This document shows positions 1,536-41,278 of a stretch of DNA of 45,000 nt, piece after piece. Both the position numbers and the translations under genes were made by a program. Under the pieces are notes generated by a model that searched no databases, was not told the DNA's origin, and saw nothing but the letters and a program-made list of their open reading frames with translations. The stretch is from Geodermatophilaceae bacterium (lineage in GTDB: Bacteria; Actinomycetota; Actinomycetes; Mycobacteriales; Geodermatophilaceae), in the NCBI GenBank assembly GCA_013695665.1, contig JACDAB010000103.1, positions 1 through 45,000 on the forward strand. The letters run 5' to 3'. The first letter of the stretch is position 1; each line of letters starts with the position of its first letter.

Positions 1536-2310
1536 ACGCGCCGCTGCACCTACCGAGGCGAACCGGTGGCACGTCGCCACGTTGGCAGGCCCGGAGCGGG
1601 CGAAAGACCGGCGCCGCGACCCGCGAGATGGGCCGCGCCCAGAGCGGACAGATCACGTCGCGAGTCGCCAGACCGGCCGGCCAGGTCGCCACGAGGTCGT
1701 CGTTCGCGCTGGCCCCACCGTCGGCGACAGGCGAGCGACAGGCCCCGCGGCGTGCTCGGTCGCCGTCACCACGTCGTCCACCTGGTGCGCGATCGACTCG
1801 AGGACCGCGCACCTCGAGCCGGGTCGGGACGATCGAGATGAACTCCGGGTCCAGGAGCGCGAAGGCCCCGGCGAAGGACAACGTCGTACCGGCCAGCGTG
1901 TCGAGGTCCAGTGGGGCGACGACGTGGTTCTTGGCGAGGTCATTGAGCCCCTGCCGTGGGCCGGCTCCTCCGCGGTTGTACGGGTCAACTGTTGAGCCGG
2001 CGGCGTCAGGCGAGGCAGGGGGAGGGGCTGGCGCAGGCGGCCGACCCGCTGACCGCAGACGAGCGGGTTCGGGTTGAATGGGCCAGGGCCGAGGACTTCA
2101 CCTGCCTGCGGCCCCCCAGGAGGATCACCCTGTAAACCGGCGCCACGGACTCCGGATGCCTTGGTACGGGGTCGGTCTGGCTCCAGATCGCCTACCTGCA
2201 GTACCGCAGCCGGTGGCCTTGCGCGTCACCCCGGCGGTCGTGGGCATTAGGGTCCTGGCACAGCCCGGTCTCGCACGGCAGTAAGAGCTGGATCGATGGA
2301 GGCGCCCGCC

Positions 2311-7803
<5,493 letters not shown>

Positions 7804-7842: not shown

Positions 7843-9798
7843 ATGCAGCCCTTTGTGCTCAACCGCAATGACCGGATCGTGTTCCCCTCTAACGTCTTTC
7901 CCGAGCTGGACCTGTCGGTGATCGACAGCCTCGAGCAGCTGGACACCGTGATCCGGCGTGACTTCGAGACGAAGACCCCGACTGGAACGGACATCCTCCG
8001 TCGGGTCGAGGAGGGCAGCTACACCAACCGGTATGAGCTGATGCGTGACGTCGCGCTCAACCTGTTCTGGACCGGTCGCTTCGCCCTCACGATGTATGAC
8101 AAGCGTCCGACGCGGTGGCGCGATGTACCGCGTCACCGCAGCGACGTATTCCTGCCCATTGTCACGCCGTGGGAAGACGGTGACCGCAAGGTCACCGCGG
8201 TCCGCGGCGCGTACGACGCCCTGCCCGCGACCGGGGACGCCGCCGCGGAGGACCGGATCTTCACGATCCTGTTCGACGTGTTCGGGCATCGTAAGCACCA
8301 CGCCACCGAACTGTCGGCGATCAAGCCCACGGTGGCCCAGATCCTGTCCGACCCGAGCAACCTCACCTTCCGGCTGGCCGGGTACGACGCGGACTTCCCG
8401 ACGTTCGGCTACGACGAGATCATCGACTGCGCCGAGGATTCTCCCGAACTGGAGGCACTGCACCGCTGGGCAATGGTGCTGCACAACCAATACCCGTGGG
8501 ACCGCTCCCAGGCCGAGCTCGTGCAGGTCGGCCAGCTCGAGGACGACGACTACGTGGTCGCCTTCCACCCACGCGACCAGGAGGTCCGGCTCTTCCTCCG
8601 TCGGCTCGACGCCGACGCGGGGCGCTCGCCCAGCGCCCCGGCGCCGGAAGCCACCCAGCCGGTGCGGCCCTACCCAGCGGTGAACGTGCGCACGCACTTC
8701 CCGGTGCAGCCGCGGATCGAGGCGCTGGCCGTGGTGCACGGCGACCGGGTTTGCAGCAACGAGGACCTGATCCGCAACGCCGCCTACAACTGGTCGCCGA
8801 TGTCGGCCGGCGAGATCCTCGACAAGACCGGGATCGCGCAGCGGCTCTACACCTCGAGCAGCCTCGAGGAGATCGCGTTGGAGGCGGCTCAGCGCGCCCT
8901 GACCAAGGCCGGGCGCGGACCCGAAGACATCGGGGCGGTGCTGGTCTGCACCTGCACGAGCACCCGGATGATCCCCTCGGTGGCGACCTGGATCTCCGGT
9001 CAGCTGGGGATCGCGCAGACCCACGGCTCCTACGACATCGTGGCCGCCTGCGCCGGGCTCCCGTATGGCCTGTCGGACGCGACCAGGCTGCTTCAGGAGG
9101 TGCAGCGCCCGGTGCTCGTGGTGTGCGTGGAAAAGTTCTCGGACAAGATCGGCAACGTGCGCCCATCCCGCATGATTTTCGGTGACGGCGCCGCCGCCAT
9201 CGTGGTCGGCGTGGCACCGCAGGGTGAGCCGCCCGACATCGAGTACCTGCAGACCTATGCCAGCGGTCCCGCCTCGGAGGTGAACTCGATCATCTGGCCC
9301 AACCCCGACTTCGACAACAACATCACCGTGTACGGCCCGGAGGTCAAGTCGCTGGCCGGGCGCTACCTGAAGCAGATGATCGACGAGTTGACGCGGTTGC
9401 CAGACCCGGACGGCAAGGCCGAATCGCTACTGGACAGCATCGAGCTCGTCGTACCGCACCAGGCGAACAAGACGATGGTGAGCCAGCTCGCCACGGGGGC
9501 AGGCCTGTCGCTCGACCGCCTGTACTTCAATATCGACCAGGTCGGCAATGTGTCGTCGGCGAGCATCCCGCTGGCCATCCATGACGCGGTGCGCGACGGC
9601 GTCATCACCGAACCCATGCGTATCTTCGCGCCGGGCTTCGGCGCGGGTGCGGTGGCCGGATACAGCGTGATGCGGATTGATCCGGCCGTGGTGGCCATCT
9701 CCGGCCCCTCACCGCGCCGGGCGCCGGCGGCCGCCTCCAGTGGCACCGATCCTCGTCCCGAGCAGTCCGCAGACGACGTGCAGCTCGCCTTCGGGTAG
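7843..9798 (+). CDS. 3-oxoacyl-ACP synthase III (KASIII/FabH-like) with additional N-terminal domain
   Basis: C-terminal KASIII: active-site AACAGLPYGL, VPHQANKTM, GNVSSASIP, FGDGAAAIVVG; first ~270 aa are not KASIII. Confidence 0.88.
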   Translation: MQPFVLNRNDRIVFPSNVFPELDLSVIDSLEQLDTVIRRDFETKTPTGTDILRRVEEGSYTNRYELMRDVALNLFWTGRFALTMYDKRPTRWRDVPRHRSDVFLPIVTPWEDGDRKVTAVRGAYDALPATGDAAAEDRIFTILFDVFGHRKHHATELSAIKPTVAQILSDPSNLTFRLAGYDADFPTFGYDEIIDCAEDSPELEALHRWAMVLHNQYPWDRSQAELVQVGQLEDDDYVVAFHPRDQEVRLFLRRLDADAGRSPSAPAPEATQPVRPYPAVNVRTHFPVQPRIEALAVVHGDRVCSNEDLIRNAAYNWSPMSAGEILDKTGIAQRLYTSSSLEEIALEAAQRALTKAGRGPEDIGAVLVCTCTSTRMIPSVATWISGQLGIAQTHGSYDIVAACAGLPYGLSDATRLLQEVQRPVLVVCVEKFSDKIGNVRPSRMIFGDGAAAIVVGVAPQGEPPDIEYLQTYASGPASEVNSIIWPNPDFDNNITVYGPEVKSLAGRYLKQMIDELTRLPDPDGKAESLLDSIELVVPHQANKTMVSQLATGAGLSLDRLYFNIDQVGNVSSASIPLAIHDAVRDGVITEPMRIFAPGFGAGAVAGYSVMRIDPAVVAISGPSPRRAPAAASSGTDPRPEQSADDVQLAFG

Positions 9799-26144: not shown

Positions 26145-26360
26145 CGACGTACTCCCTCTGTCACGGTGCCCGTCCGGGCGAATGGGACGGGATCTGCTGT
26201 TCGTCTTCCACTGTCCCATGAGAGCCGGGTGTCATGATCGGCGGCGCTGCGATCTGGCAGCGGTGACCGCGATGCGCGTCGATTGATCTAGAGTCAGGGA
26301 ATCGCCTGCCTCGGCGGACAGGACAAGTGGGGTAGGCCAAACCCAAGTGTGGAGGATTTC

Positions 26361-26942
26361 ATGGGAGTCAGCCTGAACAAGGGCGGCAACGTCTCGTTGA
26401 CCAAGGAGGCTGGTGCAGCCGGCCTCAGTGCGGTCCTGGTGGGACTGGGCTGGGACGCGCGCAGCACGACGGGAGCCGACTTCGACCTCGACGCCAGCGC
26501 GATCGCTCTGGCGTCCAGCGGCAAGGCCCTGTCAGACCAGCACTTCGTCTTCTTCAACAACCTGGCCACTCCGGATGGGTCGATCCAGCACACCGGGGAC
26601 AACCTCACCGGCGAAGGCGAAGGCGACGACGAGGCGATCAACGTGAACCTGTCCGTCGTACCGCAGGACATCGACAAGATCGTCTTCCCGGTGTCCATCT
26701 ACGACGCCGAAACCCGGTCGCAAAGCTTCGGCCAGGTACGGAACGCCTTCATCCGGGTGGTCAATCAGGCCAACAACGCGGAACTGGCCCGATACGACCT
26801 CACCGAGGACGCCTCGACCGAGACTGCGATGATCTTCGGCGAGCTCTACCGCAACGGTGCGGAGTGGAAGTTCCGCGCCGTCGGGCAGGGATACGCCTCC
26901 GGACTGCGCGGCATCGCCCAGGACTACGGAATCAACGTCTAG
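26361..26942 (+). CDS. terD: TerD family protein
   Basis: [17 protein letters not shown]...GLGWD...[11 protein letters not shown]...[13 protein letters not shown]. Confidence 0.95.
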
Positions 26943-27030
26943 CCGTGCGAGATCCTCACGCAGGTTCGGTCCTGCACATCTGACCTCAGCCGGAGACCCC
27001 GCCGGGCACCTCCTCACGGAAAGACGGTTC

Positions 27031-28149
27031 GTGGTTCTCAGAACTTTCGGTTGGTCCTTCGGGCTGACCGCGCTGGCGTTGGTCGGGGCGCTGTACCTCG
27101 GCGGTCCCGAGACGCTGCTCATCGTGGCCATCCTCATCGTGCTCGAGGTCTCGCTGTCCTTCGACAACGCGGTGATCAACGCCACCGTGCTGGTGCGGAT
27201 GAGCCCGCTGTGGCAGACGATCTTCCTGACCATCGGCATCGCCATCGCCGTATTCGGGATGCGGCTGGTGTTCCCCCTCGTGCTGGTGGGAATCACCGCG
27301 TCGCTCAACCCGGTCGACGTGGTGACGTTGGCACTGGAGGGTGGCTCGGTCGAGACGGAAGGAACCTATGCCTTCCTGCTCGAGGAGGCGTATCCGTCGA
27401 TCGCCGCGTTCGGCGGAATGTTCCTGCTGATCCTCTTCCTGGAGTTCATCCTCGAGGAGCGCGAGCACACCTGGCTGACCTGGCTGGAGCGCCCGCTGGC
27501 GAAGATCGGCAAGGTGGACCAGCTCGCCGTGGTCATTGCCATCTCGCTACTGGTCATCGCGGCGCAGACCTGGGCCAGCGACTACGCCGAGACCGTCCTG
27601 CTGTCGGGGCTGCTCGGAGCCGTCACCTACATCCTGGTCAACAGCCTCGGGCAGCTGTTCGAGTCGCAGGGCATTATTGCCGCCGAGGAGCAGGCGCCCG
27701 AGACCGACGGCAGCAGCGGACCGACCCCGCTCGTGGTGGCCACGGGCAAGGCGGCGTTCTTCCTGTTCCTCTACCTCGAGGTCCTCGACGCCTCGTTCAG
27801 CTTCGACGGTGTTATCGGCGCGTTCGCCATCAGCCAGGACATCTTCATCATCGCCACCGGCCTTGGTGTCGGCGCCCTCTACATCCGGTCCTTGACGGTG
27901 TACCTCGTCCGCCAGGGAACGCTGGACGACTATGTGTATCTCGAGCACGGTGCGCACTGGGCCATCGGCGCCCTGGCGATTCTGCTGCTCGTCACGATCG
28001 AGTTCCACATCCCCGAACTCATCACCGGCCTGATCGGCGTCGGGTTCATCATCGGGGCCTTCCTCAGCTCGGTGGTGCGCAACCGCCGGGTTGCCGCGGC
28101 CGCACCGGACGGGTCCACTCCCAAGGTCGAGGTCGATCAGCGCGCGTAG
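27031..28149 (+). CDS. TerC/DUF475 family integral membrane protein
   Basis: VVLRTFGWSFGLTALALVGALYLGGPETLLIVAILIVLEVSLSFDNAVINATVL...LEVLDASFSFDGVIGAFAIS; in-frame GTG 27031 preferred over the track start. Confidence 0.9.
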   Translation: MVLRTFGWSFGLTALALVGALYLGGPETLLIVAILIVLEVSLSFDNAVINATVLVRMSPLWQTIFLTIGIAIAVFGMRLVFPLVLVGITASLNPVDVVTLALEGGSVETEGTYAFLLEEAYPSIAAFGGMFLLILFLEFILEEREHTWLTWLERPLAKIGKVDQLAVVIAISLLVIAAQTWASDYAETVLLSGLLGAVTYILVNSLGQLFESQGIIAAEEQAPETDGSSGPTPLVVATGKAAFFLFLYLEVLDASFSFDGVIGAFAISQDIFIIATGLGVGALYIRSLTVYLVRQGTLDDYVYLEHGAHWAIGALAILLLVTIEFHIPELITGLIGVGFIIGAFLSSVVRNRRVAAAAPDGSTPKVEVDQRA

Positions 28150-28172
28150 CGCTGGCTAGGAGCGTTCGCGCT

Positions 28173-28751
28173 ATGTCTGTCAGCCTGTCCAAGGGTCAGC
28201 GGGTCTCCCTGTCCAAGCGCGGCGGCGGCACGCTGTCACGGGTCAGGATGGGTCTGGGCTGGGATGCCGTCCAGAAGAAGGGCCTCTTCGGCAAGATGAA
28301 GTCCCAGGACATCGACCTCGACGCATCGGTGTTGCTGTTCGACCGCAACAACCAGCTGGTGGACGCCGTGTGGTTCGGTCAGCTACGCAGCGCCGACGGC
28401 TCGGTGGTCCACACCGGGGACAACCTCACCGGCGCCGGCGAGGGTGACGACGAGTCAATCATCGTCGACCTCGCCGTCCTGCCGGCACACGTCACCGCCC
28501 TGCTGTTCACGGTGAACTCGTTCACCGGACAGAACTTCAGTCAGATCGAGAACGCCTTCTGCCGCCTCGTCGACGAGACCAATCAAGACGAACTGGCCCG
28601 ATTCGACCTGTCCGGTTCGGGCGCCCACAACGCCCAGCTGATGGCGAAGGTCAGCCGAGACGGTTCAGGCTGGTCGATGACGGCGATCGGGGCGACGACG
28701 TCGGGGCGCACGGTCCAGGACCTGGTCCCGGCCGCGCTGGGTCATCTCTGA
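28173..28751 (+). CDS. TerD family protein
   Basis: MSVSLSKGQRVSLSKRGGGTLSRVRMGLGWDA...DIDLDASVLLFD...GDNLTGAGEGDDESI. Confidence 0.93.
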   Translation: MSVSLSKGQRVSLSKRGGGTLSRVRMGLGWDAVQKKGLFGKMKSQDIDLDASVLLFDRNNQLVDAVWFGQLRSADGSVVHTGDNLTGAGEGDDESIIVDLAVLPAHVTALLFTVNSFTGQNFSQIENAFCRLVDETNQDELARFDLSGSGAHNAQLMAKVSRDGSGWSMTAIGATTSGRTVQDLVPAALGHL

Positions 28752-28756
28752 GGAGA

Positions 28757-30274
28757 TCAGCGGCTGCCGGTTGGGAGCAGGCCGCGCTGGCGGGCCAGCT
28801 GCAACCAGCCTGGGTACTCGTTCATCAGCAACTCGAACAGCTCGCCGTCAGGGATTGTCGCCGGATCCTCGACGGCGAAGAAGTTCGCATTGTCGACGTA
28901 GCGGCCGGCCAAGGTGTCGAGTTCCTCGAGAAACTCGAACTCCCCGCCGGACTTGCGCCCGCCACCCCATCGGCTCGGCTTCTGCACCGCTGCCCCCGGC
29001 TGAAATGACTGCGACGACTTTCCGATCGCCAGGAACTGCCAGAACAGCGGCTCGAAGGACGAGGCGATGAGCTGGTCCCGCGTGAACGCCTCATCCATCG
29101 TTCGGCCGTCTGTCACGAACATCACATACACCGGCAGTTCCTGAGCGAACGGCGCGTGCCGTAGGTCCGCCGTACCGAAGTAGTGCTGGCGGACCAGCTG
29201 CATCGCCTTGCCGTAGTACGTCGCCCCTTCCAGCTTGTGCCGGCGCAGCATCTCGTTGACGTACGTCGCATGGTTGGCCAGCTGCAAGGATCCGGCGGCA
29301 TAGCCCTCCTTACCGAAGAGAAACACGTCGACGTCACCGTCGTCGTCGAATCGCAGCCCGAGGGCCAGGATCCGCTCGGCCAGCTTCTGGATCTTGCCCG
29401 AGCGGTAGAGGCCGTGCATCGATCCGGAAATGTCCAGACACAGTGCGACGCGAGCGGTGTGCTCCCCGAGGCCGCGCTTCTCCAGTGACACCGCCGCGGT
29501 CTTGGTGAGGGAGAGCAGCTGCGGGCTCGCGCTCGCGATCTTCTTCTCCATGTTCATGAGCTGCTGCTTCTTGAGGCTGAGCTGTCCGCCGCCGCCCTGC
29601 TGAGGCGGTGGGTACGGCGCCGGCTGCCCCTGCGGGGGTGGATTGGTCGAGGTCGGTGGCCCGCTCGGCGGCGGGTAGGTGGGCTGCTGCCGTGGGGCCG
29701 GCTGCTGCCTGGCCGGCGGCGGTGCCGGCTGCCGGACCGGCGGTGGAGCGGGAGTGTCGTCCACGGAGATGCCGAAGTCGGTGGCGAGCCCCGCCAGGCC
29801 CGACGCGTACCCCTGGCCGACCGCCCGGAACTTCCACGCACCCTGCCGCCGGTACACCTCGCCGAAGAGGAATGCCTTCTCGTTGGCGGCGTCGGTGATA
29901 TCGAAGCGGGCCAGCTCGACACCTCCGGCGTCGTCGTACAGGCGCAGGTGCAAGCCGGGCACCCGGCCGAACGTCGTACCGTCCACACTCGCCCCGAAAA
30001 CCACCCGGTCAATCTCGGGCGGCAGCCTGGCGAGGTCGACTCCGACGGTGTCCTCGACACCGCCGGCGACCGGCGCCTTGCCTCGATGGCGAACCGCACC
30101 ACTCGCTCCGGACGGCTGGTTGTAGAAGACGAAGTCCGCATCCGAGCGGACTTTCCCTGCTGCGGTCAGGAGCAGCGCCGAGGAGTCCACATCAGCCGAT
30201 CCCCGCCACCCCAACACGACGCGGATCCGGCCGACCGAGATCGAGATGTTGGCGCCCTTGGCCATACTCGTCAT
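28757..30274 (-). CDS. TerD domain - Pro/Gln-rich linker - vWA domain protein (TerF-like)
   Basis: N-terminal TerD-like (VLGWRGSADVDSSALLL), PPP/Q-rich linker, vWA (ALCLDISGSMHGLY, VMFVTDG). Confidence 0.9.
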   Translation of the reverse strand: MTSMAKGANISISVGRIRVVLGWRGSADVDSSALLLTAAGKVRSDADFVFYNQPSGASGAVRHRGKAPVAGGVEDTVGVDLARLPPEIDRVVFGASVDGTTFGRVPGLHLRLYDDAGGVELARFDITDAANEKAFLFGEVYRRQGAWKFRAVGQGYASGLAGLATDFGISVDDTPAPPPVRQPAPPPARQQPAPRQQPTYPPPSGPPTSTNPPPQGQPAPYPPPQQGGGGQLSLKKQQLMNMEKKIASASPQLLSLTKTAAVSLEKRGLGEHTARVALCLDISGSMHGLYRSGKIQKLAERILALGLRFDDDGDVDVFLFGKEGYAAGSLQLANHATYVNEMLRRHKLEGATYYGKAMQLVRQHYFGTADLRHAPFAQELPVYVMFVTDGRTMDEAFTRDQLIASSFEPLFWQFLAIGKSSQSFQPGAAVQKPSRWGGGRKSGGEFEFLEELDTLAGRYVDNANFFAVEDPATIPDGELFELLMNEYPGWLQLARQRGLLPTGSR

Positions 30275-30357
30275 GCCCGGATTGTGTCAGCACCGCGTTG
30301 TCCACCGTTCACCTCGGTCGCGTCGCCGATCTGAGGATCTCGGCTAGCGTTGTTGGA

Positions 30358-31509
30358 ATGCGACACTTCGCCCATCTGGGTACCGGCGAGCGGCGGCGCC
30401 TGTTCGTCCGCGAGCCCGAGGAAATCGGCCCCGGCGCCGAGCGGGAGATCCGCGCGATCGCGTTGGGCGCGACGCTGTACTCCCCGGCCATCCGCCCGAC
30501 GCTGGCCGCGGACATCGCCAAACGCGCAGCCGGCGGCGTCCTGAGTCACGTCCTCTGCCTGGAGGACTCCGTGGCCGATGACCAGGTCGAGGCGGCGGAA
30601 GCGAACCTCGTCAGCCAGCTGCAGGCCTACGCCGACAGTGGCGGCGGCGAGTCCCAGCTGTTCATCCGGGTGCGGGCGCCTGATCAGATTCCGGACCTGC
30701 TCGCCAGACTGGGGTCGGCCGCGAGCGTTCTCGCGGGTTTCGTGTTGCCCAAATTCACCGCGCCCACGGGCCGTAAGTACTTCGACGCGATGGACAGCGC
30801 GCACACCGACCTGCTGGTCATGCCGGTTGTCGAGTCGCCCGAGGTGGTGCACCAGGAGAGTCGCACGGAGGTCCTGTGCGGCATCGCGCACCTGCTGGCC
30901 GAGCACCGTGAGCAGGTGCTCGCCGTGCGGATCGGTGCCGCGGACCTGTGCGCGGTCTTCGGACTGCGCCGCGACCGGGAGCTTTCCATCTACGACCTGC
31001 ACCCGGTGGCGTCAGTGATCTCCGACATCGTGACGATGCTCGGCCGTGCCGACGGGACCGGCTTCGTGATCACCGGCCCGGTGTGGGAGTACTTTTCCGC
31101 GCACCCGCGGCTGTTCAAGCCACTGTTGCGGACGACGCCGTTCGCCGAGCACGCGGGCCTGCGGCTGCGCAGCGATCTGCTGGCCGGGGATCTCGATGGC
31201 CTGATCCGCGAAATCGTGCTGGACAAGGCGAACGGCATGACCGGCAAGACCGTCATCCATCCCAGTCACGTGCACGCCGTCCACGCCCTCCTCGCGGTCA
31301 CCGCCGAGGAGTACGACGACGCCAGCGACATCCTCGGCGAGGACGCTCACAACGGCGGTGTACGCCGCTCGCAGCACGGGAACAAGATGAACGAGGCGAA
31401 GCCTCACCGTGCGTGGGCGAACCGCACGCTGTCGCGGTCGCGGGTCTTCGGGGTGACCCGGCCGGGCGTCGGCATCGTCGACCTGCTCGGCGCGGGCGGT
31501 CAGCGGTGA
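30358..31509 (+). CDS. HpcH/HpaI aldolase/citrate lyase (CitE-like) family protein of Ter locus
   Basis: GATLYSPAIRPTLAADIAKR, LCLEDSVADDQVEAAEANL, GFVLPKF, GKTVIHPSHV. Confidence 0.85.
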   Translation: MRHFAHLGTGERRRLFVREPEEIGPGAEREIRAIALGATLYSPAIRPTLAADIAKRAAGGVLSHVLCLEDSVADDQVEAAEANLVSQLQAYADSGGGESQLFIRVRAPDQIPDLLARLGSAASVLAGFVLPKFTAPTGRKYFDAMDSAHTDLLVMPVVESPEVVHQESRTEVLCGIAHLLAEHREQVLAVRIGAADLCAVFGLRRDRELSIYDLHPVASVISDIVTMLGRADGTGFVITGPVWEYFSAHPRLFKPLLRTTPFAEHAGLRLRSDLLAGDLDGLIREIVLDKANGMTGKTVIHPSHVHAVHALLAVTAEEYDDASDILGEDAHNGGVRRSQHGNKMNEAKPHRAWANRTLSRSRVFGVTRPGVGIVDLLGAGGQR

Positions 31510-31531
31510 CAGCTGTCGCCCGTGCGCGGAG

Positions 31532-34111
31532 GTGACCGACCCGTCGGAGTCGCCGGTGTGGACCGGGAGCTGGGTCACCGCCCGCTGGGGTTTCCACATG
31601 CGGACAGGCGAGTCGCCGCTGCGTGTTCCAGTGTCCGACCTGCTCGGCATCGCACTGCGGCGCAATCCCCGGCGTACGCACCTGTTGGTCTCGACGGTCC
31701 TGGGAAAGCATGTGCCGACCGACCCTCGACTGGTGCTGGCAGCGGGGCGGCTGCTCGGAACCTTGGTTGCCGATCAGCTGTCCCCTGACATCTCGCCGAC
31801 GCCACCCACCTGGGAGCGGCTCGGGCGGTTGCTGCAGGCCGCCATCCGCGGAGCACCCGGCTCGGCGGCCGCCATGCTGCGTGCGGTTCCCGAGCCCACC
31901 GGTTGCGGTTCGGGCGTCGTCGTCCTCGGTTACGCCGAAACTGCAACCGGCCTCGGGCACGCGGTCTCCGACGCGCTGCCGGACAGTTACTACCTGCACT
32001 CGACCCGACGCGCGGTGACCGGTGCCGAGGCAGTGGCCGGCTTCGAGGAAGAGCACAGTCACGCCACGAGCCACCTGCTGCTGCCTGAGGTCCCCGGCGC
32101 CCTCCTCGGCGACGGACCGCTGGTCCTCGTCGACGACGAGCTGAGCACCGGGCAAACGGTGCGCAACACGATCGCCGCGCTGCATCGGCTGACACCACGT
32201 CGGCGCTACGTCGTGGCCGCCCTGGCGGATCTGCGGAGTCACGACGATCGGGTGGCGATGGACCGGCTCGCCGAACGCCTCGACACCAGCATCGTCGTCG
32301 TCGCACTCGCCACCGGTGAGGTCGGATTGCCCGCCGACCCGCCCAGCCTCGAGGACCTCCGCACCATCGGGGGCCTCCGCACCATCGACGAGCAGGGTGG
32401 TCGAGACGGCAGCAGTCACCGCCCGGCGGCCCGGATTGTGGTGGACGATCTCTGGCCGCGGGGACTGCGCGACGGTGCCCGACATGGATGGCTGCGCACC
32501 GACCGCGCGGCACTCGACCGGCAACTGCCACGCCTGGCGGCGCGGCTGGCAACTGAGGTTGCCGGCGACGGCAGCGTGCTTGTGCTGGGCACCGAGGAGC
32601 TGATGTACACGCCACTGCGGCTCGCGGTCGCTCTGGCCGAGGTGACCCACGCGCAGGTGCGCTACTCGACGACGACCCGGTCGCCGGCGGCTCCGGTAGA
32701 CGACCCGGGATATCCGCTGCGCACAGCACTGGCGTTCTGCGCCGGTGACGAGCAGGCCGAACGCTATGCGTACAACGTCGCGCCGGGTGCCGGCGAGACC
32801 CGCTTCGACACCATCGTGGTCGTCACCGACACCGAGGCGCCCGACCTGCTGAATGCGGTCGGTGGATGCTGCGACCAGCTGGTCGTCGTACCGCTGCCGT
32901 CCTACCGCCCGGGGGCCCTGCCGGCGCCCCTGCGGGGTCCGCAGTTCGGCTCGTACGCCGCAGACGAGGTGAGCTGGCTGCTCCAGGATCTGTCGCACGT
33001 GTCGCTCGAGGCACCGACCGAGGAGCGCGAGGAGGCGATCCAGTCCGGTGGGGGTCACTACGCCGAGTCGCTGCCGGTGGAGTACGTCCCCTCCGCGGAG
33101 TACCGCCAGCTCTTCGAGAAGGCATTGGCCGCCTCCGCCGCCCGCGTCGCGACCGCCGTCGGTGTCGTCACCGAACTCGTGCTGGCCCGGCGGGGTGATG
33201 AGGCGGTGCTGGTGTCGCTGGCGCGGGCCGGCACCCCGATCGGCATCCTGATGCGGCGATGGGCGCAGTTCGCCCGCAACCTCGACGTACCCCACTATGC
33301 GGTGTCCATCGTCCGCGGTCGCGGGATCGACCCGGTCGCGCTGCGTTGGCTGGCCGCGCACCACGATCCGGCGCGGGTGATGTTCGTCGACGGGTGGACC
33401 GGCAAGGGGGCGATCGTGCGGGAACTCCAGGCCGCGCTCGTCGCGCACGCCACGACGACCGGGCAGCACTTCGCCGGTGATCTTGCCGTCCTCGCCGATC
33501 CGGGGCATTGCGTGTCGCTCTACGGCACCCGCGACGACTTCCTCGTGCCGTCCGCCTGCCTGAACTCAACCGTGTCAGGCCTGGTCAGCCGGACCGTCCT
33601 CAACGACGACCTGATCGGACCCGGCGACTTCCACGGCGCGAAGTTCTACGCCGAGCTGGCCGACGTCGACGTGTCCGCACAGTTTCTCGACGCGGTCAGC
33701 GCGCAGTTCGACTCGGTCGCTGACGACGTCACAGCTGCGCGTGCTGAGCGGCCCACGGGGCCGACGTGGCGGGGGTGGGCCGCGATCGAGGAAATTAGCG
33801 CGGACTACGGGATCGGTGATGTGAACCTGGTCAAACCGGGGGTCGGTGAGACCACACGGGTGCTGCTGCGCCGGGTGCCCTGGCGGATCCTGGCGCGAGC
33901 CGACGCCGCTGCCGACATCGAGCACGTCCTGCTGCTCGCCGAGGAGCGCGGCGTGCCGGTGGAGTACGTCGAGGCGCTGCCGTACTCCTGCGTCGGCCTG
34001 ATCCATCCGCAGTTCACCCGCGGGGCCATCGGCGCGACCGGAACGCGTGCCGCGGTGCAGCCCCGCGGGGCCATCGGCGCGACCGGAACGCGTGCCGCGG
34101 TGCAGCCGTGA
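31532..34111 (+). CDS. Phosphoribosyltransferase - TRSP domain - StiP/PRTase_1-type fusion protein
   Basis: PRPP-loop-like LVLVDDELSTGQTVRNT; literal TTRSPAAPVDDPGYPLR; C-terminal half LVSLARAGTPIGILMRRW...FVDGWTGKGAI as in StiP/PRTase_1. Confidence 0.82.
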   Translation: MTDPSESPVWTGSWVTARWGFHMRTGESPLRVPVSDLLGIALRRNPRRTHLLVSTVLGKHVPTDPRLVLAAGRLLGTLVADQLSPDISPTPPTWERLGRLLQAAIRGAPGSAAAMLRAVPEPTGCGSGVVVLGYAETATGLGHAVSDALPDSYYLHSTRRAVTGAEAVAGFEEEHSHATSHLLLPEVPGALLGDGPLVLVDDELSTGQTVRNTIAALHRLTPRRRYVVAALADLRSHDDRVAMDRLAERLDTSIVVVALATGEVGLPADPPSLEDLRTIGGLRTIDEQGGRDGSSHRPAARIVVDDLWPRGLRDGARHGWLRTDRAALDRQLPRLAARLATEVAGDGSVLVLGTEELMYTPLRLAVALAEVTHAQVRYSTTTRSPAAPVDDPGYPLRTALAFCAGDEQAERYAYNVAPGAGETRFDTIVVVTDTEAPDLLNAVGGCCDQLVVVPLPSYRPGALPAPLRGPQFGSYAADEVSWLLQDLSHVSLEAPTEEREEAIQSGGGHYAESLPVEYVPSAEYRQLFEKALAASAARVATAVGVVTELVLARRGDEAVLVSLARAGTPIGILMRRWAQFARNLDVPHYAVSIVRGRGIDPVALRWLAAHHDPARVMFVDGWTGKGAIVRELQAALVAHATTTGQHFAGDLAVLADPGHCVSLYGTRDDFLVPSACLNSTVSGLVSRTVLNDDLIGPGDFHGAKFYAELADVDVSAQFLDAVSAQFDSVADDVTAARAERPTGPTWRGWAAIEEISADYGIGDVNLVKPGVGETTRVLLRRVPWRILARADAAADIEHVLLLAEERGVPVEYVEALPYSCVGLIHPQFTRGAIGATGTRAAVQPRGAIGATGTRAAVQP
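34017..34107 (+). repeat. Perfect 45-bp tandem duplication at the 3' end of the PRTase-TRSP-StiP CDS
   Basis: CCCGCGGGGCCATCGGCGCGACCGGAACGCGTGCCGCGGTGCAGC repeated twice exactly; encodes RGAIGATGTRAAVQP x2. Confidence 0.97.
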
Positions 34112-34929
34112 CCGGCCCGGGGGGAAGGACGCTGGTCGTCTGCGACCTGGACCGGACGCTGATCTACAGTGCCGCGGCGATGGGTCCGGACCCCCCTGCG
34201 GTCCGCTGCGTCGAGCGGTATCAGGGCGCGGACGCCTCGTTCATGACAGTGGACGCGGTCGACCTGCTGCGCGCGCTGCAGCAGCGCTGCGAGTTCGTGC
34301 CGACGACGACCCGCACGCGGGAGCAGTACGCCCGGATCACCCTCGCCGGCTCACCCGCGCGCTACGCCATCGTCGCCAACGGTGGGCACCTGCTGCACAA
34401 CGGCGTCAGCGATGTCGACTGGAACCGGGGCGTGCTCGCCAGGCTCGCCGACTGTGCACCGCTGGCCGAAGCTGTCGAGCACCTCGACAGCCCAGCGCAT
34501 GCGCCCTGGCTCCGCCGCCAGCGGGTCGCCGAAGACCTGTTCTGCTATGCCATCGTCGAGCGGGAACTGCTCGCACCGGACATCCTCGCCGAACTCCAAG
34601 CGTGGTACGCCGAACGCGGCTGGGTGCTGAGCATGCAGGGCCGAAAGCTGTACTGCGTCCCCCACCCGCTCACCAAGTCTGCCGCAGCGGCCGAGGTCGC
34701 ACGGCGTACCGGAGCCGGCGTCGTACTGGCCGCCGGTGACTCCCTGCTCGACGCGGACCTGCTGGAGTACGCCGACATCGCCGTACGCCCGTCGCACGGC
34801 GAACTTGAGCTGATCGGCTGGACCCGGCCGGGGCTGCTGGTCACCGAGGCCGCGGGGATCGCCGGCGGTGAGGAACTGCTCCGCCTGCTCCTGGCGCGGA
34901 CTGACACCTACCTGTCGGCGCGAACCTGA
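34108..34929 (+). CDS. HAD-superfamily hydrolase of Ter locus
   Basis: VVCDLDRTLIYS (motif I), TTTRTREQY (motif II), AAGDSLLDADLL (motif IV). Confidence 0.88.
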   Translation: MTGPGGRTLVVCDLDRTLIYSAAAMGPDPPAVRCVERYQGADASFMTVDAVDLLRALQQRCEFVPTTTRTREQYARITLAGSPARYAIVANGGHLLHNGVSDVDWNRGVLARLADCAPLAEAVEHLDSPAHAPWLRRQRVAEDLFCYAIVERELLAPDILAELQAWYAERGWVLSMQGRKLYCVPHPLTKSAAAAEVARRTGAGVVLAAGDSLLDADLLEYADIAVRPSHGELELIGWTRPGLLVTEAAGIAGGEELLRLLLARTDTYLSART

Positions 34930-36161
34930 CGGACCGCGTCGACGACGGCCCGGGCGCCGTCGCTGACCGCCGCCAACTCGGTGAGATACCCCCAGTAGTC
35001 CGGCCGGTTTCGGGCCGCCAGCCGGTCGGGGACCGTGTCCAGCTGGATCCCGAGGGCGTCGAGCCTGGACACGTGCTGGGGCGAGGGCTGGTCGGCGCCG
35101 GAGAGCAGGAAACGCTGCGCATCGCGCAACACCCGGCGGGTCTGGCGCAGCGGCTCCCCGGGGTCCCGCTCGGCGGCTCGCAGGGCGGCGAGTCGGTGCC
35201 GGGGTGACTGCGCCGCATGGGCGGCTGAGTCGATGGCGGCACGAGCTGCGGCGATCGCCTGGTCGGCCTCACCCCACCGCTGCTCCTGCGGCGTGGACAG
35301 CACAGCGGCCCTGTCGAGGTGCTCCCGGCCCTGCGCGAGCGCAGCGTCAGCCGAGGCGACCTCGGCCTCCACATCGGCGAAGGAGGGATAGACGTACGCG
35401 CGGCGCAGTTCGCTCATCACCTCCGGTACGCCGAGCAGATGTCCCTCGGTGACCTGGAGGAACGTTCGAGCGGAGGTGCTCCGCTGGGTCAGGGCCTGCG
35501 CCCTTCCGGGCAGCGACTCAGCGTCGGCCTCGGCCCTGCTGCTCAGCTCGATGACGCGAGCTGCACCCTCGAGCATGCCTTGCAAGCCGATCGACTCGAC
35601 CCCGCGATCGAGCTGGGCGAGCGCGGATCGGGCCTGCTGCACGAGATGTGCGGCCTCCCGCGCCTGATAACCCGCCGCCTGGGCCGCCTCGACGGCTCGC
35701 ACCGCCGAGGTCAGCGCCACCCGGGCGGCCTGCTGCCGCTCCGGAACGGCGGCGTGCGCCGCGCGGGCCTGCTGCAATGGCCGCCCGGACTGCTCCACGA
35801 ACCGGCGTACGGCGACCACTGCGTGCGCAAGCTGCTCTGCCGATGTGCGGAACGCTTGGGCGGCATGCGCCGCGATCGGCTCCTCGAGGTCGGTGTCCAG
35901 GTCGGCGGCGGAGACCGCCGCCATATACGTCGCCACCGCGTGGTTGGCCTGCTCGCGCACCGGTTCCCAGGCCGCGGCGACCTGGCGTGCAGCCTGCCCG
36001 CTGTCCACGCCGGCAAGCATCCGCACGCCCTCAGCGGCCGCGGTCTGCTCCCGGTCCAAGTCGATGAGGGCGTGCGCCGCGCGGCCCGCTGCCTCGCGGG
36101 CAGCGGCCTGCGCCTGGTCCCGGCCACGTCGCCACCAGCGCTCGGCTGCCGGCTGCCCCAT
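34908..36161 (-). CDS. Alpha-helical/coiled-coil Ala-rich protein, Ter-locus associated, unknown function
   Basis: MGQPAAERWWRRGRDQAQAAAREAAGRAAHALIDLDREQ...; helical throughout; 22-bp 3' overlap with HAD gene. Track start at 36878 overlaps the methyltransferase CDS and is over-long. Confidence 0.75.
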   Translation of the reverse strand: MGQPAAERWWRRGRDQAQAAAREAAGRAAHALIDLDREQTAAAEGVRMLAGVDSGQAARQVAAAWEPVREQANHAVATYMAAVSAADLDTDLEEPIAAHAAQAFRTSAEQLAHAVVAVRRFVEQSGRPLQQARAAHAAVPERQQAARVALTSAVRAVEAAQAAGYQAREAAHLVQQARSALAQLDRGVESIGLQGMLEGAARVIELSSRAEADAESLPGRAQALTQRSTSARTFLQVTEGHLLGVPEVMSELRRAYVYPSFADVEAEVASADAALAQGREHLDRAAVLSTPQEQRWGEADQAIAAARAAIDSAAHAAQSPRHRLAALRAAERDPGEPLRQTRRVLRDAQRFLLSGADQPSPQHVSRLDALGIQLDTVPDRLAARNRPDYWGYLTELAAVSDGARAVVDAVRQVRADR

Positions 36162-36236
36162 GTCGATCACGGTAGCGCCAACGACCCAGCTGGCCGCAGC
36201 CGTCGCGATCTGGCGGGCTGTGTCAGGGTTGTAGGC

Positions 36237-36953
36237 GTGCCCCAGCTCCTCCGCGCCCGCAACGACCCCGGACAGTACGACGATCTGGTCGACGTCTGGT
36301 GGGACCTGTCGGGACCCTTCGCCCTCCTGCACGCGATCGCCACAGCCCGCGCCGACCTCATCCCGCCGGCGTCGCGACCGGGCGCGGTACTCGTGGACCT
36401 CGCCTGCGGTGGCGGGCTGCTCGCACCACACGTCCAGCACCTCGGCTACAGGCATGTCGGGCTGGACATCACCGCCTCGGCCCTGAGGCACGCGGCCGAC
36501 CACGGTGTCCTCGCGATTCGCGCCGACGTGCTGACGTTGCCGCTGCCCGAGGCCATCGCCGACGTCGTGGTCGCGGGGGAGATCCTCGAACACGTAACCG
36601 ATCTCGGGGGAGCGGTCGCCGAGGCCTGCCGAGTCCTGCGTCCAGGTGGAGTGCTCGTCCTCGACACGCTGGCCGATACCCGCCTCGCGCGTGTGCTGGC
36701 CGTCCACATCGCCGAACGCATCCCCGGCGGTGCCCCCAAGGGCATCCACGATCCGGCGCTGTTCGTCAACCGCGTCGCCCTGCGCGAAGCCTGCGCCCGC
36801 GGTGGCGTCACCGTCGTGCTCACCGGCCTTCGGCCCTCCATCCCCGGGCTGCTGCGGTGGATGCTCTTCCGCAGGCACAGAATCGGAATGGTCCGCACCC
36901 GGCCCACTGCCGTCCTCTTCCAGGGTCGCGGCACCAAGGAGGTTCCACGATGA
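36237..36953 (+). CDS. SAM-dependent methyltransferase (UbiG-like)
   Basis: VPQLLRARNDPGQYDDLVDVWWDLSGPFALLHAI...VLVDLACGGGLLAPHV...VVVAGEILEHVTD; GTG start 36237. Confidence 0.85.
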   Translation: MPQLLRARNDPGQYDDLVDVWWDLSGPFALLHAIATARADLIPPASRPGAVLVDLACGGGLLAPHVQHLGYRHVGLDITASALRHAADHGVLAIRADVLTLPLPEAIADVVVAGEILEHVTDLGGAVAEACRVLRPGGVLVLDTLADTRLARVLAVHIAERIPGGAPKGIHDPALFVNRVALREACARGGVTVVLTGLRPSIPGLLRWMLFRRHRIGMVRTRPTAVLFQGRGTKEVPR

Positions 36954-38143
36954 CCAGTCAGGACCGGGTGGCCGACCCCGCGAAGGCCCTCGCCGCCGCG
37001 CGACACCTGGCCGGCGCCCTGGCCACCCGCGCCGCCGAGCACGATCGCCAGGGTTGCTTCCCGAAAGCGGACTTCGACGACCTGCGGGCAGCCGGCCTGC
37101 TCGGCCTGATGGTCCCCGCCCGGCTCGGCGGCCCCGGCGCAGGGTTCCAGGACTACGCCGAGGTGGCCATGGCGCTCGCCGCGGGCAACGGCGCTACCGC
37201 CCTCATCTACAACATGCATGCCTCGGTCACCGGCGCACTGGCCGGTACGCCGGACGAGCTGGCCCGGGCGCTCGGCGTACCGGAGTCGTACTTCGAGATG
37301 CGCGACCGGGTGCTGACCAACGCCCTCCACGGGTCGCTGTATGCCGTCGCGATGAGCGAGCGCGGAGCCGGCAGCCGGCTGTCGCAGCTGACGACGTCGT
37401 ACGAGCCGGTGGACGGGGGGTACCGGATAAGGGGGTCGAAGACCTTCGTGTCTGCCGCCGGCCACGCCGACGGCTACCTGGTGGCGGCTCGGCGGGCGGA
37501 CGCCGACCCGCCGGTGTTCTCGCACTTCATCGTCCCGGCCGGCCCGGGCTTGCGGGTCGAGGAGACGTGGGACTCCCTCGGCATGCGGGCCACCGGCAGC
37601 AACGAGTTGCACATCGACACGACGGTGCCCGAGGACGCGCTGCTGGGCGGGATGGAGGGCCTGGTCCTGCTGCTCGCGCAGGTGATGCCGCAATGGCTGG
37701 TCGCTTCCTACGCGGCGGTGTACGTCGGGGTGGCGCAGTCGGCGATCGACGCGGCAGTGGCTCACGCCGGTGACCGGGCTCTGGCGCGGCTGCCCGCCGT
37801 ACGAGCCCGGCTGGGGAGGGCCGACGCAGCTGTCGCCGCCGCTCGCCTCGCCGTACTGGAAGCGGCCGGGCGGATCGACCGCGCACCGGGTGAGCCGGAG
37901 ACCAACCGGTGGGTGTGGCGGGCCAAGCTCCTCGCCGGGCAGACCGCGATGGATGTCGCGGCCTCGATGCTCGAAGCGGCCGGTACGTCGGCGTCGCGGC
38001 GTGGGCATCCGTTGGAGCGGATCTTCCGGGACGCCCGCTGCGGTTCGTTGCAGCCGGCGACCAGCGACGTCTGCGCGGACTGGCTCGGGATGGCCACGCT
38101 CGGGTTGGACCCGGAGAACGCCGCGGAGGTGTCGCGCTGGTGA
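36950..38143 (+). CDS. Acyl-CoA dehydrogenase-family flavoprotein
   Basis: MTSQDRVADPAKALAAARHLAGAL...FDDLRAAGLLGLMVPARLGG...GNGATALIYNMHASV...WDSLGMRATGSN; AAGGAGG 7 nt upstream; ATGA overlap. Confidence 0.88.
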   Translation: MTSQDRVADPAKALAAARHLAGALATRAAEHDRQGCFPKADFDDLRAAGLLGLMVPARLGGPGAGFQDYAEVAMALAAGNGATALIYNMHASVTGALAGTPDELARALGVPESYFEMRDRVLTNALHGSLYAVAMSERGAGSRLSQLTTSYEPVDGGYRIRGSKTFVSAAGHADGYLVAARRADADPPVFSHFIVPAGPGLRVEETWDSLGMRATGSNELHIDTTVPEDALLGGMEGLVLLLAQVMPQWLVASYAAVYVGVAQSAIDAAVAHAGDRALARLPAVRARLGRADAAVAAARLAVLEAAGRIDRAPGEPETNRWVWRAKLLAGQTAMDVAASMLEAAGTSASRRGHPLERIFRDARCGSLQPATSDVCADWLGMATLGLDPENAAEVSRW

Positions 38144-39183
38144 CGGCCGGCGCTGCCGTGGTCACGGGTATGGGGTACGCCGCACCGGCCTCGGTGACCC
38201 AGGAAGCGTTGTGGGACGGGTTCTTCGCCGGGCACTACAGCAACCACCCGGTCGCCCGGCGGATCTTCGCCGCGGCCGGCGTGCGGACCCGGCATGCGGT
38301 GGCGAACCCGTTGGACGAGGATCTGTCGACGTGGAGCACCGGGGCACGGATGGCCCGGTACGTCGCGGAGTCGATGCCGCTGGCCAAGCAGGCGGTGACG
38401 CACGCCCTTGACGAAGCCGGGCTGGCGGCCGGGGACGTCGGCCTGTTCGCCGTGGCGTCGTGCACCGGCTACAGCACCCCCGGCGTGGACATCCGACTGG
38501 CCCGAGATCTCGGGATGAGCGCCGACCTGCAGCGGCTCTTCGTGGGTCACATGGGGTGCTACGCCGCCGTACCCGCGCTAGGTGCCGTGTCGGACTTCGT
38601 CGTCGCCCGTGGGTGCCCCGCCGTTCTGCTGTGCCTGGAGTTGACCAGCCTGCACGTGCAGCCGCCGACTCACGACATCGACCAGATGGTCAGCCATTCG
38701 CTGTTCAGCGACGCAGCTGCGGCTGTCGTCGTCGAGCCGGGTGCGGTGGATGGCTTCGAGGTCGTCGACGTCGTGGCCAGAACCGATGTCGCCACCGCCG
38801 ACCACATGACGTGGGAGGTGACGGACCTGGGCTTCCGGATGCGACTGTCCCCCAGGGTCCCCGACGTCCTGGCCACGCATGTCCACTCCGTGGTCACCGG
38901 AATGCTCGACCGCCAGGCACTGTCCATCGAGGACATTGCCGCCTGGGCGGTGCATCCCGGTGGGCCGCGGATCCTGGATGTCGTCGCCGACCGGCTCACG
39001 CTGGCGCCGGAGTCCCTGGCGGCGTCGAGACGGGTGTTGGCCGAGCACGGCAACTGCTCGTCGGCGACCGTCCTGCTGGTCCTGTCCGAAGTCACGTCCG
39101 ATGTCCCCAGTGGCGGATACGTCGTGATGACGGCCTTCGGCCCGGGACTGACCTTGTACGCCGCACTGCTCCGCCGCCGCTGA
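38140..39183 (+). CDS. Type III polyketide synthase (chalcone/stilbene synthase family)
   Basis: CTGYSTPGVD, FVGHMGCYAAVPAL (catalytic Cys), WAVHPGGPRILD, AEHGNCSSATVL; GTGA overlap with upstream gene. Confidence 0.92.
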   Translation: MTAGAAVVTGMGYAAPASVTQEALWDGFFAGHYSNHPVARRIFAAAGVRTRHAVANPLDEDLSTWSTGARMARYVAESMPLAKQAVTHALDEAGLAAGDVGLFAVASCTGYSTPGVDIRLARDLGMSADLQRLFVGHMGCYAAVPALGAVSDFVVARGCPAVLLCLELTSLHVQPPTHDIDQMVSHSLFSDAAAAVVVEPGAVDGFEVVDVVARTDVATADHMTWEVTDLGFRMRLSPRVPDVLATHVHSVVTGMLDRQALSIEDIAAWAVHPGGPRILDVVADRLTLAPESLAASRRVLAEHGNCSSATVLLVLSEVTSDVPSGGYVVMTAFGPGLTLYAALLRRR

Positions 39184-39266
39184 AGCCTGCGCCAAAGGTC
39201 TTGCGCAACCAGCGCCGGACGCCCCAGAGTGGTCCCGCCACGGGGGTGATCTAAGGAGCTACCTCG

Positions 39267-39833
39267 ATGTCCACGGCGATCGGCAAGAGCCCAGCCCTGG
39301 TGATCACGCTGGCCGGCGCGCTGCTCGCCGGAGCTGCCGTTGCCTTGTCGATCGGGGTCTACGCCGGACTGCACGAGCCCGCCAACCGCCCCCTGGTGAC
39401 CCTCGGCTTCTCGGGCATGCTGCAGATGAAGGCGTGGCTGACCAACGCTGCGACCCTGTTGCTGATCGTCCAGCTCACGACCGCCCTGTGGATGTGGGGC
39501 CGGCTCCCGGGCGTGCGGGCGGCCGCGCCGTCGTGGGCCGCGCCCGTGCACCGGTGGAGCGGCACGACGGCGTTCGTCCTCACCGTCCCGGTCGCCTTCC
39601 ACTGCATCTGGGCGCTGGGTTTCGCTACCGGTGACCTCCGGGTGACCGTGCACAGCATCGTCGGCTGCCTGTTCTACGGCGCCTACGCCGCGAAGATGCT
39701 CGCACTGCGAGGACGCGGGCTGCCCGGATGGGCGCTACCGGTGCTCGGCGGCAGCGTGTTCGCAACCCTGGTGCTGCTCTGGCTCACCGCGTCGCTGTGG
39801 TTCCTCACCCGCTCCGGCATACCGCTGATCTGA
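39267..39833 (+). CDS. Multi-TM membrane protein, DUF6529/cytochrome b561-like
   Basis: Several TM helices with conserved-looking His (VHRWSG, FHCIWALGF, VHSIVGCLFYGAYAAKM); AAGGAG upstream. Confidence 0.75.
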   Translation: MSTAIGKSPALVITLAGALLAGAAVALSIGVYAGLHEPANRPLVTLGFSGMLQMKAWLTNAATLLLIVQLTTALWMWGRLPGVRAAAPSWAAPVHRWSGTTAFVLTVPVAFHCIWALGFATGDLRVTVHSIVGCLFYGAYAAKMLALRGRGLPGWALPVLGGSVFATLVLLWLTASLWFLTRSGIPLI

Positions 39834-39842
39834 GGGGTGACG

Positions 39843-40289
39843 ATGTCGGATGAGGGACTGTCCCGGCGCTCGGTTCTGCGCGGTGCCGCGGTGACCGCTG
39901 TCGCAGGAGTGGCCGGCTTCGCCGTCGCTGCGACCAGCGAGGCCGCCGACGACACAGGGGCGGCCACGGCGGCCAACGGCTACGGCGCCGAGGAGGAGAC
40001 CGGGCAGCGGCTGGCCGCGCTGGCCGACATCCCCGCGGGAGGCGGGCTGATCCTCGACGGCCCACGCGTCGTCCTGACCCGAGTCGAGTCCGGTGGGGTC
40101 GCCGCATTCTCGGCCACTTGCACGCATCAAGGCTGCACCGTCAGCTCGATCGAGGACGGCCTGATCGTCTGCCCCTGCCATCTCAGCCGCTTTGACCTCG
40201 CGACCGGTGCGCCGGTCTCCGGTCCCGCGGCGAGCCCACTGCCGCCGGTCGCCGTCGAGGTGCGCGGCGAGGACGTCTTCATCATCTGA
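39843..40289 (+). CDS. Tat-exported Rieske [2Fe-2S] protein
   Basis: SRRSVLRGAAV twin-arginine motif; CTHQGC ... CPCHLSRF Rieske ligands. Confidence 0.95.
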   Translation: MSDEGLSRRSVLRGAAVTAVAGVAGFAVAATSEAADDTGAATAANGYGAEEETGQRLAALADIPAGGGLILDGPRVVLTRVESGGVAAFSATCTHQGCTVSSIEDGLIVCPCHLSRFDLATGAPVSGPAASPLPPVAVEVRGEDVFII

Positions 40290-40300
40290 GGAAGGTTGCC

Positions 40301-40384
40301 ATGCAGTGGTCACGCGCTCTGCCCACGCTCGTCTGGCTGGCTGCTGTCGGCTTCGCGATCGGCGCCCTGGTCGCGCTGTCGTAG
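40301..40384 (+). CDS. 27-aa single-TM micropeptide
   Basis: MQWSRALPTLVWLAAVGFAIGALVALS*; GAGGAAGG 5 nt upstream of ATG, 11 nt after Rieske stop; below the track's length cutoff. Confidence 0.6.
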   Translation: MQWSRALPTLVWLAAVGFAIGALVALS

Positions 40385-40394
40385 CGTCGGTGAC

Positions 40395-40994
40395 ATGCCG
40401 GACGCCGTCGACCAGCTCATCGAGGTCGGGCGCAAGGTCGTCGCCACCGGGCTCGTCATCGGCTCCGGCGGAAACCTCTCGGCTCGCTCGCCGGACGGCG
40501 ACGCGTGCTGGATAACCGGAGCCGGCACCTGGCTGGAGGAGTTGGACCGTTCAGCGTTCTCCCTCGTCCGGATCGAGGACGGGGCAGTGCTGTCAGGCAA
40601 CCCGGCGCCGTCCACCGAGGTGCGCCTTCACCTGCGGAGCTATCAAGCCCGCCCTGACGCGACGGCGTTGATTCACCTGCATCCCCAGCTGTCGGTCCTG
40701 CTCGACGCGATGGGCCACCGGCTCCGGCTGGTGACGACCGACCACGCCTTCTACGTCGGTTCGGTCGAGCGGGTGCCGTGGTACCGGCCGGGGACCGAGG
40801 AGCTTGCCCGAGCCGCCGCCGCAGCGGTCGCCGACGGCTGCAACTGCGTGATCCTTGCCCAGCACGGATGCTCGGTCCTCGCCGACAGCGTGGAGTTGGC
40901 GCACAAGCGGGTACTCAACCTGGAGGAGGCGGCGCGGGCGACGTACGCCGCCCTGCTGCTCGGCGGCTCGGTACCTGAGTGCCCGTCACCGTGA
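40395..40994 (+). CDS. Class II aldolase/adducin family protein (FucA-like)
   Basis: MPDAVDQLIEVGRKVVATGLVIGSGGNLSARSPDG...ALIHLHPQLSV...QHGCSVLADSVELAHKRVLNLEEAAR. Confidence 0.9.
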   Translation: MPDAVDQLIEVGRKVVATGLVIGSGGNLSARSPDGDACWITGAGTWLEELDRSAFSLVRIEDGAVLSGNPAPSTEVRLHLRSYQARPDATALIHLHPQLSVLLDAMGHRLRLVTTDHAFYVGSVERVPWYRPGTEELARAAAAAVADGCNCVILAQHGCSVLADSVELAHKRVLNLEEAARATYAALLLGGSVPECPSP

Positions 40995-41056
40995 TCATGG
41001 GATCTGACCGCCCCTGGCCGGCGCAACCCCATGATCATCGCCAAGCGGCCAAGCGG

Positions 41057-41278
41057 CTAGGACTGGTCGGCGGCGCGGGCCTCGGCCCCGGTCTCGCCTG
41101 CGTACCCGGCGTCCTGGCCCGACACCCGGCCGACAAACTCCTCGCTCTCACCGGTCCCGGTGGTCGAACCCGCGTCCTCCCCCTTCGCATCGGGGTCACC
41201 ACCGGTCTCCCGCGAGTTGGCGAGCGTCGAGTCATCCTCGACATCAGATTCGCGGTCCTGGGCAGGGTCGGAGGTCAT
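41057..41278 (-). CDS. Small acidic, likely disordered hypothetical protein
   Basis: MTSDPAQDRESDVEDDSTLANSRETGGDPDAKGEDAGSTTGTGESEEFVGRVSGQDAGYAGETGAEARAADQS. Confidence 0.5.
   Translation of the reverse strand: MTSDPAQDRESDVEDDSTLANSRETGGDPDAKGEDAGSTTGTGESEEFVGRVSGQDAGYAGETGAEARAADQS

Follow-up and report, generated by a model that had tools for sequence, protein, structure and literature searches.

A probable agq/los-type phenolic-lipid operon beside a putatively separate DUF6529–Rieske redox module in a Geodermatophilaceae genome

Introduction

When genes for a type III polyketide synthase (PKS) and genes for membrane redox proteins follow one another on the same strand, do they form one functional unit or two? 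This question is raised by a 45,000-nucleotide stretch of DNA from a Geodermatophilaceae bacterium (contig JACDAB010000103.1), hereafter the window, in which six such genes occupy positions 36237–40384. The initial annotation proposed that an operon modeled on srs of Streptomyces griseus builds a methylated phenolic lipid or quinone and continues into a dedicated redox unit acting on that product. Judging from comparative sequence analysis, we consider it likely that these are two independent modules placed next to each other: a phenolic-lipid operon, and a DUF6529–Rieske pair with a micropeptide. The methyltransferase (MT), acyl-CoA dehydrogenase (ACAD)-fold and PKS genes can now be tied to a known phenolic-lipid pathway. 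The comparison also brings out a recurring, uncharacterized DUF6529–Rieske module, a putative exported redox pair whose function is directly testable.

Results and discussion

Gene layout of the locus

The reading frames of all six genes were confirmed, and their families were assigned by Pfam and NCBIfam; all lie on the forward strand. The first (36237–36953) encodes a UbiG-like SAM-dependent MT (PF08241, 1.1e-18), which scored 90.2 bits against the UbiG model TIGR01983, under the NCBIfam cut-off of 102.95, and so falls outside UbiG proper. It is followed by the ACAD-fold flavoprotein (36950–38143; PF02770, 1.8e-18) and by the type III PKS (38140–39183; PF02797, 2.4e-22; PF00195), a putative alkylresorcinol synthase of agq/los type. 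The three genes overlap by four bases each, as annotated initially: ATGA between MT and ACAD (36950–36953) and GTGA between ACAD and PKS (38140–38143). After a gap of 83 bp (39184–39266) come the genes for a DUF6529 membrane protein with five transmembrane (TM) helices (39267–39833; PF20139, 1.6e-70), a bc-type Rieske protein predicted to be exported by Tat (39837–40289, with an alternative ATG start at 39843; PF00355, 2.5e-12; QcrA-like, 1.3e-15) and a 27-amino-acid, single-TM micropeptide, MQWSRALPTLVWLAAVGFAIGALVALS (40301–40384). The next gene on this strand encodes a class II aldolase/adducin-family protein (40395–40994; PF00596, 3e-39), and an aldolase gene also comes after the PKS or Rieske gene in the related loci L002, L003, L004 and L006.

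Compared with L004, the ACAD gene differs at 38, 17 and 128 sites in codon positions 1, 2 and 3, and the DUF6529 gene at 24, 11 and 68. This bias toward the third position indicates that the genes are not chance frames and are under purifying selection. The micropeptide is conserved in L003, L004 and L006, where a Shine-Dalgarno-like sequence lies in front of it, and the changes relative to L003 (5, 0 and 11 in codon positions 1, 2 and 3) are mostly synonymous; on this comparative evidence it is a real gene, as had been annotated. No Rfam family was detected within 35900–41200, and searches for a sigma-70 promoter and a T-tailed terminator found neither. Genes in relatives were called with a simple codon-usage script, and the window's own genome (G000) is 74% complete.

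The MT–ACAD–PKS genes resemble agq and los loci

With the PKS as query, 84,980 species genomes were searched and 178 relatives emerged; we read the 80 best loci, several of which end at contig edges. Among these best 80 of 178, the PKS is adjoined by an MT gene in 75, always upstream, by an ACAD gene in 64, by a divergent UbiA gene (confirmed by Pfam: PF01040, 6.6e-25) in 66 and by a DUF6529 gene in 3; MT and ACAD are both directly upstream of the PKS in the window and in 61 of the 80. The order is fixed in Micromonosporaceae, where it reads disA-radA-lipoprotein-UbiA<-MT-ACAD-PKS-carD-ispD-ispF, with genes possible between PKS and carD.

Two described systems share this gene content. The agq cluster reportedly contains a type III PKS, a methyltransferase, an ACAD homolog and a UbiA-type O-prenyltransferase. 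The window's genome has genes of all four types, but differs in that its UbiA gene lies elsewhere and the DUF6529–Rieske pair and micropeptide lie next door. For agq of Actinoplanes missouriensis, an alkylresorcinol is described as being hydroxylated and O-prenylated (PMC10896814; PMC3227686), and the products are given as alkyl-O-dihydrogeranyl-methoxyhydroquinones (Awakawa 2011, as cited in PMC7587189, PMC3227686 and PMC10896814). Type III PKS loci of Micromonospora carry the agq annotation in the literature (PMC9967187). The Micromonosporaceae order also equals that tabulated for the loseolamycin genes (Table 1, PMC7587189), with UbiA, MT, ACAD and PKS between radA and carD, whereas the window operon lies away from the radA–carD neighborhood. 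LosA of Micromonospora endolithica is reported to make alkylresorcinols upon heterologous expression (PMC7587189); for los, it is the PKS product alone, and no tailored product, that has been characterized. The MT–ACAD–PKS genes very probably form an agq/los-type phenolic-lipid operon, whose product would be a methylated phenolic lipid of a kind already known from actinobacteria, the likeness to LosA and AgqA being drawn from gene content, locus order and the papers.

A UbiA gene at the ancestral site

Although the window operon has no adjacent UbiA gene, absence of UbiA from the genome was ruled out: a 49% identical copy was found on another contig (G000:C125:1280-2092, L197), at the disA-radA...carD-ispD-ispF site. 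The same holds in the Geodermatophilaceae whose UbiA site was read (the window's own genome, G008, G018, G026, G010, where it lies at a contig end, G002 and two Geodermatophilus genomes): UbiA occupies the position disA-radA-lipoprotein-UbiA / carD-ispD-ispF, and MT-(ACAD)-PKS lies elsewhere. UbiA is kept in 13/13 genomes tested. Since UbiA is still at the ancestral site, relocation of the operon within an intact pathway is the simplest interpretation; 36237–39183 would be the displaced MT–ACAD–PKS part of an agq/los-type pathway. By analogy with LosA and AgqA, the PKS would use malonyl-CoA to elongate a fatty acyl starter, giving an alkylresorcinol. The ACAD-fold enzyme would hydroxylate the ring to a hydroquinone, the MT would O-methylate this hydroquinone, and UbiA from C125:1280-2092 would O-prenylate the lipid.

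The PKS is present in 92 of the 96 sampled Geodermatophilaceae genomes, including 85/85 good ones, a near-universality that may reflect a basic role of the lipid in the family. A close ACAD homolog was found in only 5 of the 96, and the product of most members may therefore be less oxidized. The ACAD copy of G026, at a contig end (G026:C22:4-867), contains one in-frame TGA, through either assembly error or decay.

The ACAD-fold protein and the nature of the product

The Cys140-His272-Asn305 triad of the PKS is invariant in 81/81 homologs. By contrast with an ordinary ACAD encoded at window position 23695, which keeps the dehydrogenase-type catalytic Glu, the ACAD-fold protein of the operon lacks this C-terminal-domain residue and has RDARCGSLQPATSDV at the site; QPA or HPA replaces the Glu in the ten cluster ACADs aligned. 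The missing Glu argues against a true acyl-CoA dehydrogenase for 36950–38143. Among its nearest relatives of known structure are KijD3, nitrososynthase, DnmZ and DszC, which are oxygenases. The protein is most likely a flavin monooxygenase, acting as a ring hydroxylase rather than a dehydrogenase, and this reading would fit ring hydroxylation of an alkylresorcinol.

The product could also be a non-prenylated alkyl-methoxy-benzoquinone of the srs/polyketide-quinone type that serves as an alternative respiratory carrier, with the unlinked UbiA serving another role. This alternative concerns the product alone and does not conflict with a two-module layout. A PKS, an MT and a flavin enzyme are indeed the srs/PkQ tool kit as presented in PMC9927152, the closest solved structure to the PKS is mycobacterial (PKS11 of Mycobacterium tuberculosis, E 1.6e-47), and UbiA is non-adjacent in Geodermatophilaceae; yet UbiA is retained throughout the genomes tested, at the ancestral cluster site. 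Moreover, srs of S. griseus and pkq of Mycobacterium smegmatis and Streptomyces MNU77, in which a PKS, a methyltransferase and a flavin oxidoreductase give methoxy-alkyl-benzoquinones, have the order PKS-methyltransferase-oxidoreductase (for pkq, PMC9927152), with the PKS first, whereas the window has MT-ACAD-PKS and, unlike srs/pkq, a flavin enzyme of ACAD fold. We regard such a benzoquinone as unlikely and favor the agq/los-type lipid. The initial annotation thus appears to have been right about the kind of operon, with agq/los a closer model than srs.

DUF6529 and Rieske genes form a recurrent pair

The membrane protein had been described as b561-like and multi-TM. Its five TM helices bear out the second description. 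It has no b561 Pfam match, and its score of 236.6 bits against PF20139 (gathering score 23.3) places it in DUF6529, an uncharacterized Pfam family for which we found no mention in the literature searched. Among 33 members, H95, H129, K55, R125 and K143 are invariant, H95 and H129 being the only family-wide invariant His residues. An AlphaFold model (pLDDT 89) has five helices and gave nothing significant in Foldseek. VIA-align rows included a designed diheme protein, cytochrome b6 and b561 (Z 7.5), but helical bundles reach such Z values by chance. It is possible that the protein binds heme. The Rieske protein begins with a twin-arginine sequence and, read directly, carries the motif CTHQGC...CPCH, which conforms to the bc-type pattern (CTHxGC plus CPCH); its annotation as a Tat-exported Rieske protein is thus supported. 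Electrons probably pass within the membrane from the DUF6529 protein to its exported Rieske partner.

DUF6529 occurs in 15/96 Geodermatophilaceae genomes, in 26/296 of a phylum sample and in 33/101 genomes of the Pseudosporangium family. A Rieske gene lies 3′ of it in Streptomyces (assigned by neighbor genes), in two genomes of the same order as that of the window, in G002 and in 10/10 Pseudosporangium-family loci listed, and the pair in the window is of the kind present in Streptomyces and the Pseudosporangium family. A module of a secreted protein, DUF6529 and Rieske recurs in several actinobacteria (L134-L139, L096, L211-L219), normally without a PKS; no Pfam family matches its secreted protein significantly. 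In the DUF6529 loci read elsewhere, a secreted protein usually precedes DUF6529 and a PKS never does, whereas the window has the micropeptide after the pair. Other neighbors of DUF6529 are cupredoxins and an FHA-Fer2-oxidoreductase protein, and these varied redox neighbors tie the family to redox proteins generally rather than to this lipid. In L097-L101, DUF6529 lies beside a protein of ~1030 amino acids, the L099 copy of which is an FHA-Fer2-pyridine nucleotide oxidoreductase fusion. As judged by this distribution, DUF6529–Rieske is a separate, uncharacterized redox module.

Adjacency of the two modules is confined to one clade

A survey of adjacency, set as a test beforehand, found the redox module to be regularly separate from the PKS genes. 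Among the 25 genomes with both modules, they are adjacent in 4, all of one clade, where "apart" in fragmented assemblies means on different contigs and the genomes are samples. These four (G000, G008, G026 and G010) are the only adjacent cases in the 96 Geodermatophilaceae, the other 11 with both having them apart. In the Pseudosporangium family, 10/16 DUF6529 genomes checked have the PKS, and the two are unlinked in 10/10. The adjacent loci are the window, L003, L004 and L006; the window and L006 represent two genera, with PKS 73% and DUF6529 75% identical, and some selection for adjacency is possible, given its survival across genera.

Within this clade, L002 has the PKS nearest to that of the window (88–89% identical), yet its MT–ACAD–PKS genes are followed after 40 bp by the aldolase gene, and the redox genes are missing. 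The genome of L002 (G018, matched to it via PKS identity and DUF6529 absence; 98% complete) has no DUF6529. In the PKS tree, L002 sits beside the window within the adjacent clade (support 98/89 and 98/95), and this nesting indicates that the redox pair was lost there and the operon kept. The redox module (39267–40384) would have come to lie next to the operon in an ancestor common to one Geodermatophilaceae clade, at least one member of which later lost it.

The gap between the modules contains a conserved 25-bp block, GCCC(C/G)A(C/G)AGTG..C....CACGGGG (39221–39245, forward strand), immediately ahead of the ribosome-binding site of DUF6529. All four loci with an adjacent DUF6529 gene carry this candidate control element, and none of the other loci fetched does; in L003, where the PKS–DUF6529 gap is 228 bp, it stays with DUF6529 and not with the PKS. 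The block suggests that DUF6529 may be under its own control. A hairpin was rejected as the gap element, because the folding energy equals that of shuffled sequences (z -0.4 to 0.4).

We weighed these data against the proposal that the six genes form one operon in which DUF6529–Rieske is a dedicated unit oxidizing the PKS-derived phenolic hydroquinone. The shared strand and short gap, the adjacency kept in four loci of two genera and the bc-type Rieske motif are all consistent with such a unit. The adjacency clade is, moreover, the only sampled Geodermatophilaceae clade with a close ACAD homolog, and so could make a hydroquinone; 4/5 of the Geodermatophilaceae with that homolog have the adjacent pair. 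In both mycobacteria and Streptomyces, polyketide quinones are described as carriers in respiration (PMC9927152), and for this reason the idea keeps a small probability. Nevertheless, the operon persists without DUF6529 in L002/G018, 77/80 PKS loci (best 80 of 178) have no DUF6529 at the PKS, DUF6529–Rieske is found elsewhere without a PKS, the conserved block lies upstream of DUF6529, and O-prenylation by UbiA would block redox chemistry. With the PKS near-universal and adjacency restricted to four genomes, we consider the dedicated unit improbable. Its most specific form, in which DUF6529, the exported Rieske protein and the 27-amino-acid membrane subunit make up a minimal complex that oxidizes a polyketide hydroquinone, a new bc-like step for a non-menaquinone lipid, is very improbable. 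We retain two independent modules as the likely reading; a link between operon and redox pair is possible but unsupported, and is unneeded to explain the data.

It is scarcely credible that the PKS is DpgA-like and converts malonyl-CoA to 3,5-dihydroxyphenylacetyl-CoA: DpgA (NF042429) is its best NCBIfam match, but DpgA identity was rejected because the 148.8 bits lie far under the cut-off of 425, no DpgB/C/D genes adjoin it, and losA, from the same kind of locus, is reported to make alkylresorcinols (PMC7587189).

Genomic surroundings

Directly upstream of the operon lies a stress-type ter cluster (26349–34929), with TerD at 26349, TerC/DUF475 at 27031, a PRTase_2-TRSP-StiP-PELOTA fusion at 31532 and a HAD-like protein at 34108; conservation of the last part of this cluster extends to L002 and L004. 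A gene on the reverse strand (34908–36161), with no Pfam or NCBIfam match, is divergent from the MT gene, with ~75 bp between them. L002 and L004 have copies 79–81% identical to it, there separated from the MT gene by 600–1000 bp. A plasmid tblastn search gave matches of <60% identity only. Farther away, the window encodes an 1835-amino-acid fused biotin carboxylase-carboxyltransferase of the acyl-CoA carboxylase type (2296–7803), followed by a 651-amino-acid protein with a KAS III C-terminal domain (7843–9798).
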